Of a stretch of 64,000 nucleotides of DNA, positions 5,763-44,070 are shown piece by piece. Numbering within the stretch: position 1 is the first letter of the stretch; each line of letters opens with the position of its first letter. The stretch comes from Flavobacteriales bacterium (GTDB lineage: Bacteria > Bacteroidota > Bacteroidia > Flavobacteriales_E > Vicingaceae): positions 1-64,000 of the forward strand of contig PALM01000036.1 of the NCBI GenBank assembly GCA_002706365.1, written 5' to 3'. Both the position numbers and the translations under genes were made by a program. Under the pieces are notes generated by a model that worked only from the letters and a program-made list of their open reading frames with translations, was not told where the DNA came from and did no database searches.

Positions 5763-5773
5763 CATATAAGAGC

Positions 5774-5813
5774 CTAGAATCTAGATTCTAGAGTCTAGAC
5801 TCTAGGTTCTCAG
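5774..5813. repeat. CTAG heptamer array, copy 2
   Basis: CTAG recurs at 5774, 5781, 5788, 5795 and 5802, exactly 7 bases apart: CTAGAAT, CTAGATT, CTAGAGT, CTAGACT, CTAGGTT, then CTCAG. Sub-blocks are perfect palindromes, for example CTAGAATCTAGATTCTAG. The array fills the whole spacer between the convergent PaaE-like and small basic protein genes. Confidence 0.75.
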
Positions 5814-16829: not shown

Positions 16830-16896
16830 AGTTTTTATGTATTTCGTAAATAGCGTTACGTAAAAGACGTAATAAAGATACGATAATTTTTTGAAG

Positions 16897-16920
16897 GATC
16901 GAAGACGGAGGTCGAAGACG
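16897..16920. repeat. Left inverted repeat flanking the four-helix-bundle gene
   Basis: GATCGAAGACGGAGGTCGA at 16897-16915 is the exact reverse complement of 17374-17392 on the other side of the four-helix-bundle gene (19 of 19 bases). It is made of a 13-bp unit ATCGAAGACGGAG and continues as AGACG. Confidence 0.75.
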
Positions 16921-16982
16921 CCCTAAGTATTAAACTTTTGATTTGGAAGATAGAATGTTGTACCTTTTATAAAAGCTTTGAT

Positions 16983-17327
16983 ATGTTCGGTTTCCAGTCA
17001 TTAAACGTTTATAAGAAAGCACAGAATTTCAATGTTGAAGTAAGAAAATTCCTGAATAGGAATAATTTTGATTATTCAACAGAAAACCAGCTTAGACGGG
17101 CTGCATTAAGTGTTGTACTTAACATCTCGGAAGGAAATGGACGATTCACAGATAAGGATAGAAGGAGATTTTTTATAATGTCTAGAAGTTCACTTTTTGA
17201 ATGTGTAGGTGTTTTTGATACTCTAATCCTAGAGGAAAGCATGAAAAGAGAGAAGTATAATAGTCTCATGAAGCTCGCAGAAGAGCTTTCCAGGATAATT
17301 TATACCATGATCAAGAACCTATCCTAG
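16983..17327 (+). CDS. Four-helix bundle protein (23S rRNA intervening-sequence / S23 family)
   Basis: A 114-residue protein of the TIGR02436-type family encoded in intervening sequences of 23S rRNA genes in some bacteria and structurally related to the Avd protein of diversity-generating retroelements. Features are the opening FQSLNVYKKAQNFNVEVRKF, the conserved RRAALSVVLNISEGNGR (about residues 40-56), RRFFIMSRSSLFECVGVFDTL and the last helix. An earlier in-frame start exists at 16938, but MFGFQSLNVY fits the family. The gene is not inside an rRNA gene here and is bracketed by perfect 19-bp inverted repeats, so it may be a cassette. Molecular function is unknown. Confidence 0.85.
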   Translation: MFGFQSLNVYKKAQNFNVEVRKFLNRNNFDYSTENQLRRAALSVVLNISEGNGRFTDKDRRRFFIMSRSSLFECVGVFDTLILEESMKREKYNSLMKLAEELSRIIYTMIKNLS

Positions 17328-17341
17328 AACAGTTATCAAAA

Positions 17342-17417
17342 CTCCGTCTTCGATCTTAAGCAATATGCCTTCCTCGACCTCCGTCTTCGATCTCCGCCTT
17401 CGATCTCCGTCTTCGAT
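17342..17417. repeat. Right repeat block: 13-bp tandem units and inverted repeat
   Basis: The 13-bp unit CTCCGTCTTCGAT occurs alone at 17342-17354 and three times in tandem at 17379-17391, 17392-17404 (CTCCGCCTTCGAT) and 17405-17417. The stretch 17374-17392 is the exact reverse complement of 16897-16915. It lies between the four-helix-bundle gene and the convergent symporter gene. Confidence 0.75.
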
Positions 17418-17453
17418 CCTAAACTATTTATTACCTTCTCTAGTTACAGCCTT

Positions 17454-28920: not shown

Positions 28921-28938
28921 TTTTTGAGACAGAAGAGT

Positions 28939-28970
28939 CTAGAATCTAGACTCTAGACTCTAGGTTCTCA
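28939..28970. repeat. CTAG heptamer array, copy 3
   Basis: CTAG at 28939, 28946, 28953 and 28960, spaced exactly 7 bases: CTAGAAT, CTAGACT, CTAGACT, CTAGGTT, then CTCA. The terminal GGTTCTCA is shared with the copies at 5774 and 44042. It occupies the spacer between two convergent genes. Confidence 0.75.
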
Positions 28971-29341: not shown

Positions 29342-29387
29342 AGGGTTTTATCTCAGAATTAAATTAATAGCTTTCAAGAACTTACAA

Positions 29388-29460
29388 CTTTAGGCACTTC
29401 AAGTACTTTAGTGCACTTTAGGCACTTCTTCCTTTCAGCTTGCTGAAAGGAAGGTAACCT
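29388..29460. repeat. CTTTAGG/CACTTC repeat interrupted by a 10-bp-stem hairpin
   Basis: CTTTAGGCACTTC occurs at 29388 and again at 29416, exactly 28 bases apart, with CTTTAGTGC between at 29406. TTCCTTTCAG-CTTG-CTGAAAGGAA at 29429-29452 is a perfect hairpin placed inside this repeat. It has no T-tract on either strand, so it is not a terminator. A related GTGCACTAAAGTG lies near 43982. Confidence 0.6.
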
Positions 29461-33776: not shown

Positions 33777-35300
33777 ATGAAAAAACTAAAATTCAATTTT
33801 TTAAGTCTGATCCTGGTTGGATTCGTGAGCTTGAATCCATTATACTCCCAAATCACCGAAGGGCATGAGGACTTTGATAAAATGATCGCCACCTCAATTG
33901 ATAGTTTCGAGATTCCGGGACTAACCATCGCCTTGATCAAGGATGGTGATGTAGTTTTTGAGAATGCATACGGATTGGCAAATGAAGAGAAGGGAAGCAA
34001 AGTGGACCTTGAGTCGAATTTTGCCATTGCTTCACTGAGTAAAGCTTTTACTGCGGCAGCTATTGGAATGCTTGTAGATGATGGTAAACTCAATTGGAAT
34101 GATAGAGTTCAAAAGCATATGCCGGGCTTCACCCTAAGTGATGAGTATGTGGCTAGTCAGATGACCGTGGAAGACCTACTTTGTCACCGCTCTGGCTTCA
34201 ACACCTTCGATGGCGACTTACTTTGGTATAGCACCAATTACGACCGTAGGGAAATCATTGAGCGTTTTCAGGAATATCCAATGAGCTATGATTTTAGAAC
34301 CCAATATGGCTATCAGAATATCATGTTCATCATCGCCGGCGAGATCGTGGAAGAGGTTAGCGGAATGAGCTGGGAAGACTTTATTGAGAAACGATTCTTC
34401 GAGCCTTTGGAAATGACGCATTCAAATGCCACTTTCGAGGGCTTTAAAGTTGAAGATAATATTGCGCTCCCTCATGTAAAGGGCATAATGGAAGACATCC
34501 GAAACTACGATAATTCAGGTGGTGCAGCGGCAATCAGCTCGAATGTGAAGGACCTGACTCATTGGATTCAGATGTGGTTGAATGATGGAATTTACGGAGA
34601 TGATACATTACTCCAGGCTGCAACTTGCAGAAAATTAATGGAAATGCATACGCCTATGCCTACTTCTTCATTTGATCGTTCACATGATATTAATTTTAAG
34701 GGCTATGGTCTTGGTTGGTTCTTGATGGCCTATGGAGAACACAAAGTCGCCCATCACGGCGGCGGTCTTCCCGGGTACATCTCCAAGATCTTCATCCTTC
34801 CAAATGAAAAAATGGGTGGAATCATCCTCACCAATGGAGAGTCTTCTATGCCTTCTGCGATGATGTATGCCAGCATCGATGAGTTCATCAATACCGATTC
34901 AGAAACTGAATGGATTCCAACCTATATCTACTTTAAGAAGAGATATGAAGAGTATTTGGCGAATAGGGAGAAAGGAAGAGTTGAAAAGAGAGGGAAAGCC
35001 AAAGCCAATATAGCTGTAGAAAAGATGCTAGGTGAATATGAAGATAAATTCTACGGAAAAGCGAAAATCTCTCAAGTGAAAGGCAAGTTGCAAATCAGTT
35101 TATTGCCAGCTGCTGATAGATTCACCTCTGAAATGACCCACTGGCAGCAGAATTCATATCAGATAAGGTTCAAAGATCAATTCTTACCTGCCGGCTATGT
35201 GACCTTTGAAAGTAATGCTGATGGGGAAGTGATAGGTTTCAAGATCGATCTTCCAAATCCCGACTTCCATTTCCACAATTTGGATTTCAAGAAGCTATAA
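33777..35300 (+). CDS. Serine hydrolase, class C beta-lactamase family
   Basis: A 507-residue exported hydrolase with a signal peptide MKKLKFNFLSLILVGFVSLNPLYSQ. The catalytic SxxK is SLSKAFTAAAIGM (about residues 87-90), the YxN equivalent is YGYQN and the third motif is HHGGGLPGY, replacing KTG as in many esterase-type members. A C-terminal accessory domain (YEDKFYGKAKISQVKGKLQISLLP) resembles the DUF3471 lipocalin-like module common with these enzymes. The substrate, peptide or ester, cannot be told. Its final codons overlap the convergent radical SAM gene by six bases. Confidence 0.87.
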   Translation: MKKLKFNFLSLILVGFVSLNPLYSQITEGHEDFDKMIATSIDSFEIPGLTIALIKDGDVVFENAYGLANEEKGSKVDLESNFAIASLSKAFTAAAIGMLVDDGKLNWNDRVQKHMPGFTLSDEYVASQMTVEDLLCHRSGFNTFDGDLLWYSTNYDRREIIERFQEYPMSYDFRTQYGYQNIMFIIAGEIVEEVSGMSWEDFIEKRFFEPLEMTHSNATFEGFKVEDNIALPHVKGIMEDIRNYDNSGGAAAISSNVKDLTHWIQMWLNDGIYGDDTLLQAATCRKLMEMHTPMPTSSFDRSHDINFKGYGLGWFLMAYGEHKVAHHGGGLPGYISKIFILPNEKMGGIILTNGESSMPSAMMYASIDEFINTDSETEWIPTYIYFKKRYEEYLANREKGRVEKRGKAKANIAVEKMLGEYEDKFYGKAKISQVKGKLQISLLPAADRFTSEMTHWQQNSYQIRFKDQFLPAGYVTFESNADGEVIGFKIDLPNPDFHFHNLDFKKL

Positions 35301-36362
35301 TCCGGGTATTCTCAAACTCTCACCAGGCCTTCTAAATGCATCGAGATTGTAGTTTGGAAGGCCTGCTTTTTTGATGTGCTTAGCTTCTCCTAGCTTCACC
35401 ATATTGGAGATCATCTTGGCAATTTCACCGCTACCTTTCATTCGCCGACCATAATTGGAGTCGTTGAGCTTCCCTCCATGCATCTCCTGGATCTGATGAA
35501 TTACCTTATGGTAACGATCCGGAAATTGCTTTTCCAACCAATTGCTGAAGATCTCAGCGATCTTTCCATTTAATCTTACTGTGGTATGTCGGATTGCTTT
35601 TGCACCTGCCTCTGCTGCTGCTTTGGCAAGTGCTGGTATTTCATGACTGTTCAAGCCGGGAATGATCGGAGCTAGCATTACACCAACAGGTATTCCTGCT
35701 TTTGATAGCTCTTCTATTGCCTTCAATCTGTTTTTCGAGGATGAGGTTCGCGGTTCCATTTTGCTTCTCAACTTATCATCCAGACTTGTTAGACTGATAT
35801 ATACATGCAAAAGCTTTTCTTCTGCCATCGGCCGAAGCAGATCAATATCTCTGCAGATCAAATGGTTCTTGGTGATGATTCCCAGTGGATTTTGGAACTC
35901 CTTGAATATTTCGATCAGAGAGCGTGTGATCTTTAGCTTCCTTTCAATGGGTTGATAGCAGTCGGTATTGCCGGAAAGCATGATCGGACTAGCCTTCCAG
36001 CTTTTCTTCATAAAGAAGGTTCTCAAGAGTTCAGCGGCATTGGCTTTATAGAGAATCTTGCTTTCAAAGTCCATTCCGGCTTCATAGCCCCAATACTGAT
36101 GCGAGTTCCTCGCATAGCAATAGATGCATCCATGCTCGCATCCTTGATAGGGATTAATGCTGTAATCCAATCTTAGATCTGGACTATCAACCTTATTGAC
36201 GATGCTTTTGGGAAAGACTTCCAGATACTGAGTCTTGCCTTCGATCTCTGGCTCTAGGTCTAGTCCTTCAATTTCATCTCTGCAATAGGTGGCTTCATTG
36301 AAGCGATTGTCGGTTATGTGTTGGGCTCCTCTTCCCCTGATGATTTTATCGTCATTGATCAT
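35295..36362 (-). CDS. PA0069-family radical SAM protein (SplB-like)
   Basis: A 355-residue radical SAM enzyme. The cluster motif is YQGCEHGCIYCYARNSHQYW (CX3CX2C), followed by DFESKILYKANAAELLR and SGNTDCYQPIERKLKITRS, as in the PA0069 family related to spore photoproduct lyase. LEVFPKSIVNKVDSPDLRLDYSINPY is a typical family lead-in. The substrate is not known; DNA repair is suggested only from distant similarity. It overlaps the serine hydrolase gene end-to-end (convergent) and lies 41 bases downstream of the lycopene cyclase gene's stop side. Confidence 0.87.
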   Translation of the reverse strand: MINDDKIIRGRGAQHITDNRFNEATYCRDEIEGLDLEPEIEGKTQYLEVFPKSIVNKVDSPDLRLDYSINPYQGCEHGCIYCYARNSHQYWGYEAGMDFESKILYKANAAELLRTFFMKKSWKASPIMLSGNTDCYQPIERKLKITRSLIEIFKEFQNPLGIITKNHLICRDIDLLRPMAEEKLLHVYISLTSLDDKLRSKMEPRTSSSKNRLKAIEELSKAGIPVGVMLAPIIPGLNSHEIPALAKAAAEAGAKAIRHTTVRLNGKIAEIFSNWLEKQFPDRYHKVIHQIQEMHGGKLNDSNYGRRMKGSGEIAKMISNMVKLGEAKHIKKAGLPNYNLDAFRRPGESLRIPGL

Positions 36363-43954: not shown

Positions 43955-43969
43955 TGGAAGAAGTGGGGA

Positions 43970-44070
43970 AGTGCAACTAGAGTGCACTAAAGTGGGGCCA
44001 AATCAGAGATCAGAAATCTGAAATCAGAAAGCTAAAACTGTCTAGATTCTAGGCTCTAGGCTCCAGGTTC
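43970..44070. repeat. GTGCACTAAAGTG repeat followed by TCAGAAA and CTAG heptamer arrays
   Basis: AGTGCAACTAGAGTGCACTAAAGTG (43970-43994) is related to the repeat at 29388. TCAGAGA, TCAGAAA, TCTGAAA, TCAGAAA, GCTAAAA follow at 44003-44037 in 7-bp phase. Then CTAG at 44042, 44049 and 44056 and CCAG at 44063, ending GGTTCTCA. All lie between the convergent T9SS protein and msrB genes. Confidence 0.7.

Follow-up and report, generated by a model that had tools for sequence, protein, structure and literature searches.

Our analysis indicates that the feature at 16895-17420 of the window (the whole stretch of 64,000 nucleotides that was analysed) is, fairly probably, one copy of a family of mobile cassettes that resemble the intervening sequences (IVS) of rRNA and lie outside rRNA, with ends defined by inverted arms and a protein that recognises the heptad words of these arms. 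The layout of the cassette is a 5' arm of imperfect, C-poor words of about 7 nt, followed by an ORF of the IVP/S23 family and then by an inverted arm. This is the anatomy of an rRNA intervening sequence, and for this reason the cassette is read here as its non-rRNA form. Sequence comparisons show that the arms match within a copy and are private to it, that they change together at a given site over long times and, in recent copies, accompany the gene; that gene-less arrays share the words of the genome's cassettes; that sites in near relatives can be empty, gene-less or occupied by different cassettes; and that the ORF is under purifying selection. We infer that the cassette moves as a unit and that its ends are set by the arms. 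The elements of the window copy are the following:

16895-16925, + strand: 5' arm with the heptad-like words GGATCGA AGACGGA GGTCGA AGACGCC (arm search, shuffles, RNA fold)
16926-16982, + strand: leader from the 5' arm to the start codon (sequence)
16983-17327, + strand: IVP/S23-family four-helix-bundle gene, 114 aa (HMM, AlphaFold2, Foldseek)
17342-17355, - strand: extra single word unit on the 3' side, 14 nt, 100% complementary to the 5' arm
17374-17420, - strand: 3' arm of tandem 13-bp (6+7) words, inverted with respect to the 5' arm (arm and tandem-repeat search)

The sequence-only reading had placed the gene within perfect 19-bp inverted repeats. Both copies were found, GATCGAAGACGGAGGTCGA at 16897-16915 (+) and its exact reverse complement at 17374-17392, and no comparable 19-bp inverted repeat arose in 100 dinucleotide-shuffled versions of the window, even at 3 mismatches. 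Terminal inverted repeats are present at the window cassette, and the best arm pair extends beyond the 19 bp described earlier: it joins 16895-16920 with 17395-17420, giving an inverted-arm span of 16895-17420, and has a score of 21, compared with a maximum of 14 among 1,678 other placements of the same geometry in the window. The minimum-energy RNA fold pairs 16895-16917 with 17398-17420 and forms a stem around the ORF. The tandem 13-bp units to the right of the gene, also described before, occur in 3.5 copies at 17374-17418, with the further unit at 17342-17355. The ORF, from 16983 (ATG) to 17327, is the sole ORF between the arms, and no transposase was found inside the cassette. The location of the gene outside rRNA was borne out, as no Rfam family, rRNA included, reached the threshold in the window; the same holds for the earlier statement that no reverse transcriptase is present, with 0 RVT_1 matches in the host genome (95.7% complete). 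The cassette is flanked by genes for an ATPase and a sodium:solute symporter; both lie on the opposite strand, and the window copy is antisense to them, unlike most copies. The word TCGAAGACGG was considered as special by enrichment and rejected: it has 10 genome occurrences, as many as its reversed control, and therefore the word itself is not special.

The protein was recognised from the letters alone as a four-helix bundle akin to the 23S rRNA IVS protein and, by fold, to Avd, and this assignment agrees with the profile and structure searches. The window protein matches PF05635 with 78.7 bits (cut-off 33.8) and TIGR02436 with 75.5 bits (cut-off 24), and its AlphaFold2 model has four long helices (mean pLDDT 97.2). 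The top Foldseek matches are the S23-family structures 2rld and 2gsc (TM 0.81-0.93), each with five chains per entry; the source organism of 2gsc is X. campestris, and the solved structure of the Xanthomonas relative is described as a homopentameric ring. The next fold matches are 4dwl (Avd) and 8ub7 (a ribonucleoprotein of a diversity-generating retroelement, DGR), with TM of about 0.79; the identity of the window protein to Avd is 9-11%. The window protein had no match in a phage search, and the first scan of a genome collection with this protein as the query returned no relative. The ORF is under purifying selection, with dN/dS of at most 0.35 in 14/14 same-site pairs (dS 0.1-0.75) and of at most 0.2 in 13 of them.

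Members of PF05635 are numerous in this group of bacteria. The host genome has 12 matches and the sister G001, the other genome of the genus compared, has 9; the domain was found in 46/46 genomes of the host's family and in 45/61 sampled Bacteroidota, compared with 0/14 control genomes, and its paralogues reach 16 per genome among the sampled Bacteroidota. The flanks of these genes were compared with a cross-locus null, in which the left flank of one locus is set against the right flank of another (8,578 pairs). Inverted arms exceeded the 95% null in 20/21 genus loci. The family set comprised at least 152 unique genes, 144 of which had at least 200 bp on both sides; among the matches listed, the arms of 95/144 loci were above the 95% null and those of 65/144 above the 99% null, and the median arm score was 14.5, versus 9.0 for the null. 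The direct-orientation control was above the 95% null in only 17% of family loci, and when one locus per site was kept, 50/74 family loci remained above it. The genus and family analyses measure the flanks from the domain edge and the ORF edge, respectively, and a few loci (L018, L032) are above the null in one analysis only. A pan-bacterial set was drawn from a profile scan of named genomes; it comprises the 80 best among 583 confirmed relatives and is skewed towards proteins of Bacteroidota type. By record titles, these 80 include Bacteroidota, Planctomycetes, Verrucomicrobiota, Terriglobia, Desulfosarcina, Geobacter, Omnitrophica, Acetothermia and others. After the removal of two duplicates of family loci, 77 loci with usable flanks were left, and 53/77 were above the 95% null. 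About a third of the loci in the family and pan-bacterial sets are without significant arms.

The expectation that other copies of the gene would have the same ends did not hold. In the genus, the arm sequences differ by copy or by small copy group (GAGGACGAGGACGAAGA, GAGTCCGAGGAACGAGTCCG, AGAATCTAGAACCTAGAGTCTAGA, AAATCAGAAATCAGAGATCTG, CAAGAAACAAGAGATAAGA and others). Each lineage of copies has ends of its own, and the common part is the architecture: inverted orientation, words of about 7 nt and a C-poor 5' arm. From arm to arm the cassettes have a median length of 478 bp, and the kind ranges over about 0.45-0.55 kb. Similar cassettes were observed on plasmids, mostly cyanobacterial (16 of 26 plasmid records and one further record), where 10/17 IVP genes had arms above a null that is itself inflated by shared GGGA words. 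The cassette of the Nostoc edaphicum plasmid has GGGAGTA arms and lies between two ribonucleotide reductase genes, and that of the Pseudanabaena plasmid has AGCTAAA arms and lies between cas6 and cas4; other arm words are GGGAACA in Nostoc C052, GGGTGTA in Calothrix and GGTGACA in Anabaena 90. A cassette of Picosynechococcus is located between cmr2 and cmr3, and its arm score of 14.5 is just under the plasmid null. Three cyanobacterial plasmid cassettes (L224, L310, L316) lie within CRISPR operons, once between cmr2 and cmr3 and twice between cas6 and cas4.

The arms are imperfect tandem arrays of words of about 7 nt, complementary within a copy and different between copies, with a median length of 27 bp, or about four words. 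In 85 family loci, the identity at lag 7 was 0.524 in the left and 0.535 in the right arm, compared with 0.342 expected, and about 0.48 at lag 14; the best lag was 7 in 63 of these loci and 8 in 16, with a small rise at lag 8. The pan-bacterial set (45 loci) gave a lag-7 identity of 0.541 versus 0.313, also with a lag-14 peak. G exceeded C on the 5' arm in 54/70 family loci and in 42/43 pan-bacterial loci.

The relation between the two arms over time was assessed at shared sites. For same-site loci with 50-70% protein identity (97 pairs), the arm match was 15.7 within a locus and 10.8 between loci; this gap narrows at higher protein identity, to 17.2 versus 15.0 (31 pairs) and 15.6 versus 16.1 (23 pairs). 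The comparison rests on the cross-side control, as same-side scores contain conserved upstream coding sequence. According to this trend, the arms either diverge slowly and co-change over longer times, or get renewed by replacement. Among copies of the same genome, arm similarity increases with protein similarity (Spearman 0.24, p 0.003), and both same-genome pairs with a protein similarity above 0.7 have common words. When the 7-mers were permuted and the arms realigned, the arm match fell only from 20.9 to 18.3 (76/97 loci), and therefore much of the match is due to the common word and not to exact copying; the idea of exact unit-by-unit copying of the arms was only partly supported by this comparison. 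The arm mismatches had no excess of G-U wobble (81 wobble-compatible versus 66 not, p 0.25) and so give no sign of selection for pairing at the RNA level.

Cassettes usually lie in gaps inside operons. Among the matches listed, the upstream neighbour is co-directional in 138/144 family loci and both neighbours in 121/144; the corresponding values in the pan-bacterial set are 70/76 and 68/75. The same-strand background is 116/147 outside the slot in pan-bacterial loci and 35/49 in the window, and the difference between 138/144 and 116/147 is significant (p = 1.5e-8); a background of 449/524 contained the cassette loci themselves, and 116/147 was used in its place. The IVP start follows the upstream stop at a median distance of 58-59 bp in the family and pan-bacterial sets, which means that the 5' arm abuts the stop codon.

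Two junctions of core genes illustrate the occupancy of such gaps. Among the best 30 of 43 sdhB matches, the sdhA-sdhB gap was empty (5-30 bp) in 17, held an IVP cassette in 8 and a gene-less insert of 54-73 bp of word-like sequence in 3; the remaining two were an unclassified 55-bp gap and a gap cut by a contig end. All of these cassettes (8/8) are oriented along the operon; seven were measured at 426-492 bp, and in G017 the IVP ORF is directly 5' of sdhB. Among the best 30 of 42 sufE matches, the sufS-sufE distance was -4 to +2 nt in 22 and 10 nt in one; two of the others had a cassette, three a gene-less insert of 56-69 bp and two another gene together with an insert of 43-44 bp. No target-site duplication was seen by eye at the sdhA-sdhB and sufS-sufE junctions, where the arms and gaps are short and diverged enough to conceal one. 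Many cassette sites are old and vertically kept. In two loci (L066, L075), the right arm of the cassette gives sufS its ATG and first codons (MNFINS...), and apparently gives sufE its start as well; arms can thus turn into coding sequence. In addition, other small non-IVP ORFs with word-like sequence were observed where sister species hold an IVP cassette (L080:5500-6160, L071:5557-6204); judged by these two, cassette gaps may accept other cargo.

Several comparisons between close genomes bear on movement. G010 and G009 have sdhA-sdhB flanks that are about 93-96% identical and cassettes that are unrelated, and G014, with an SdhB that is 98% identical, has a gene-less insert at this junction. 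The cassettes at the sufD-sufS junction (sufD named by eye) of G010 and G012 (L066_3 and L075_0) are 97.8% identical in the 5' arm and leader, 98.8% in the ORF and 100% on the 3' side; their flanks are 86.6 and 85.9% identical, and the similarity changes at the arms. One gene further in G010, at sufS-sufE, there is an 84%-identical relative of this cassette, and the alignment stops at its arms. On sequence grounds, we read these cases as the probable result of a recent spread in which the arms went along with the rest of the cassette; for the pair L066_3/L075_0, gene conversion at the common site is a possible alternative. G010 and G014 share a further cassette (L068 and L072) with an ORF identical over 348 bp and flanks that are 93.2 and 96.7% identical, which is a second, weaker candidate for recent exchange.

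At the site of the window cassette, the order of symporter and ATPase gene is kept in sister G001, and the stretch leading up to the ATPase start, TTTTTACGTAACGC..., can still be recognised as common to both genomes. The cassette is absent there, with neither the IVP gene nor the heptamer array; in this comparison with a sister site, which had been suggested, the gap holds a different small gene, perhaps DUF1648-like, and is not a clean empty site. The earlier proposal of a self-contained cassette that moves has thereby gained comparative signs, namely a cassette-less sister site, swapped occupants and a near-identical cassette in diverged flanks, but an insertion at single-event resolution was caught at none of the compared loci.

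Heptad words also occur in arrays without an IVP gene. The window contains six strict period-7 arrays; the other periods from 4 to 12 gave one array in all, and the shuffles none. Six of the 12 tandem-repeat arrays of the window match a cassette arm of their own genome at a score of at least 15, and the same 12 arrays gave 0-2 matches in each of 14 other genomes, for which fewer cassettes were available (5-9 versus 12). The gene-less arrays, all without assigned strand, are:

5769-5810: palindromic array CTAGAAT, a word of cassettes L017/L019 of the same genome (DNA fold z -2.24)
28934-28963: palindromic array AGACTCT, word family of L019
29305-29339: array TTTTAGA, a word of cassette L022
30436-30473: array AAATCGG x5.4, near the word of L035/L036
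44000-44030: array AAATCAG, a word of cassettes L035/L036
44048-44071: array TCTAGGC, word family of L017/L019

Frequent repeats without such a gene had been named beforehand as an argument against the cassette. Gene-less arrays are indeed common, but they carry the words of the genome's own cassettes, and therefore look like related elements and not like a refutation. The folding of gene-less inserts was weak, with 2/7 sequences below z = -2, and the candidate description of them as stable hairpins was rejected.

On this basis, we propose the following scheme. A cassette would insert in the space that separates two genes of an operon, along the direction of transcription. Like that of the rRNA IVS, its transcript would close into a stem, of about 25 bp, that leaves the ORF in the loop, and with this closure an insertion in a multigene mRNA could be tolerated and processing by RNase III would be possible. 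The IVP protein would bind the ends of the cassette or its transcript by recognising the heptad arms, in which case words and protein would drift together. This protein of a pentamer family probably acts on its heptad ends; pairing of the cassette ends as RNA in the cell and binding of the protein to them are presumed. Strand transfer may be performed by host enzymes or by an unrecognised partner, which are proposed because the cassette has neither a recombinase nor a reverse transcriptase. Arms of about four words and a ring of five subunits lead us to guess at one word per ring subunit. Strong purifying selection and old, vertically kept sites are unusual for a purely selfish element and count against the mobile-cassette reading.

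The closest known system is the IVS of 23S rRNA with an S23p ORF (Coxiella, Leptospira and others). The accessible part of a study of Coxiella describes an IVS of 444/428 nt with a 28-bp terminal stem and excision by RNase III, two or three tandem heptamers just 5' of the S23p ORF, decay of this ORF and a sporadic distribution (PMC4990558). As far as these descriptions extend, the protein family, the similar length, the complementary ends, the heptamers by the ORF and the sporadic occurrence are shared with our cassettes. Unlike the 23S rRNA IVS, the cassettes described here lie between protein genes, occur many times per genome and have private words; their arms themselves are heptad arrays, and their ORFs are under purifying selection.

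Dispersed heptamer repeats offer a further comparison. Excerpts of the published accounts report arrays in Xanthomonas (GGGAATC) and Nostoc (GGGGA(C/T)T), with 70 convergent inverted pairs in X. campestris (PMC4692102), and TAACTGA heptamers in Beggiatoaceae (PMC4679880). As presented in these excerpts, such repeats resemble the arrays found here in their period of 7, their intergenic position and their frequent location between same-strand genes; the excerpted descriptions name no associated protein (PMC4692102, PMC4679880), whereas the cassettes carry an IVP gene. The link between IVP and heptamers is new, as far as the open-access literature that was searched shows.

Other explanations of these data have to be weighed. 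One of them, which we regard as unlikely, is that IVP serves the host as a post-transcriptional regulator by binding to heptad arrays of mRNAs, with gene-less arrays as its targets and its own arms serving autoregulation; the cassettes would not move by themselves, and copies would arise by duplication or recombination. The position of arrays right after stop and right before start codons within operons would suit such a regulator, as would the words that gene-less arrays share with cassettes of the same genome and the strong purifying selection on the ORF; MacGregor, in the available part of the paper, proposed a post-transcriptional binder for TAACTGA heptamers near start codons (PMC4679880). 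However, up to 16 paralogues per genome with mutually different words are unusual for a host regulon, as are the fast turnover of occupants at core-gene junctions and the near-identical cassettes in diverged flanks, and direct binding would need no inverted second arm. Gene-less period-7 arrays that stand alone are also consistent with passive mutation, in which heptamers grow by slippage, template switching inverts copies and IVP is an ordinary small gene among them. An excerpted account ties heptamer abundance to polymerase slippage (PMC4692102), and in near-identical orthologues, changes in one drifting arm are not mirrored in the other. Against this, the same gene family is bracketed by arms in many phyla, these arms keep one orientation (5' arm with G>C in 54/70 and 42/43 loci), the words track the protein and near-identical copies include their arms; we consider passive mutation quite improbable.

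Two further explanations assign the movement to enzymes acting in trans, and both appear to us very improbable. The similarity to Avd, a four-helix bundle (TM about 0.79) with a five-chain assembly (4dwl, chains A-E), could indicate a relic in which IVP is an Avd-like accessory of a diversity-generating retroelement or of another reverse-transcriptase system; Avd and the DGR ribonucleoprotein (4dwl, 8ub7) are the top fold matches after the S23 family. Unlike such a retroelement, the host genome, 95.7% complete and with 12 copies, has no RVT_1 match, and the identity to Avd is 9-11%. The other explanation resembles REP/RAYT systems: a Y1 (HUH) transposase encoded elsewhere would move hairpin-ended cassettes and gene-less arrays in trans. 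In REP/RAYT systems and MITEs, a single form with the gene is accompanied by many without it, alike in sequence within a genome, and the cassettes likewise have gene-bearing and gene-less forms with common sequence. The host genome has three Y1_Tnp matches, and the word-sharing gene-less arrays resemble REP sequences. However, 17/46 family genomes have no Y1_Tnp match, including sister G001 with its 9 cassettes as well as G035 and G031 with 5 and 3 PF05635 matches, respectively, and the cassette itself encodes no Y1 protein. It differs from REP/RAYT and MITEs in having neither Y1 nor another transposase, in words that vary by copy and in the lack of a visible target duplication.

Returning to the mobile cassette with arm-defined ends, we put forward a broader hypothesis, which is possible and still rather doubtful as a whole. 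IVP proteins may be the missing partner of the heptamer repeats of bacteria, including GGGAATC of Xanthomonas, the cyanobacterial short repeats of heptameric type known as STRR, TAACTGA of Beggiatoaceae and the word arrays of Bacteroidota. In a pentameric ring, each subunit would read one 7-nt word, and the ring about five in tandem, on that strand of each arm which is poor in C; word and protein would co-evolve into many orthogonal pairs per genome. Guided by the ring, the cassette would enter gaps of transcribed operons and rRNA helices, as would its derivatives that lack the gene, and together they would form one pan-bacterial class of mobile elements without a recombinase or polymerase of its own. 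The role of the S23/IVP protein and the nature of dispersed heptamer repeats, two old puzzles, become one testable question in this way. Since the cassettes are located in core operons (sdhAB, suf, CRISPR cmr and cas, nrd) and their occupancy changes among closely related species, they may influence how important genes are expressed. Should the protein prove to be the mobility factor, the cassettes would represent a type of element without a recognisable recombination enzyme and with many natural protein-word pairs.

Some minor observations may be added. Two units of the word of the window cassette are located inside a 403-aa ORF (L007:1380-1640; G000:C7, about 35225-35485), in a stretch that resembles a disordered linker and also holds KSEIGNQKSEIG and AAATCAG-like words of the same genome; heptamer arrays can therefore occur in coding sequence. 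Segments of 169 bp (L067:2472-2640 versus L082) and 197 bp (L152:554-750 versus L155), both at a distance from the IVP gene, are present in one and absent from the other of two closely related species. Arrays with units of 9-10 nt at 43969-43994 and 29387-29427 (AAGTGCACTAGAGTGC-like and ACTTTAGGC) bear a faint likeness to the L034 arm, with scores of 11.5 and 11.0, and possibly represent a non-heptad class.
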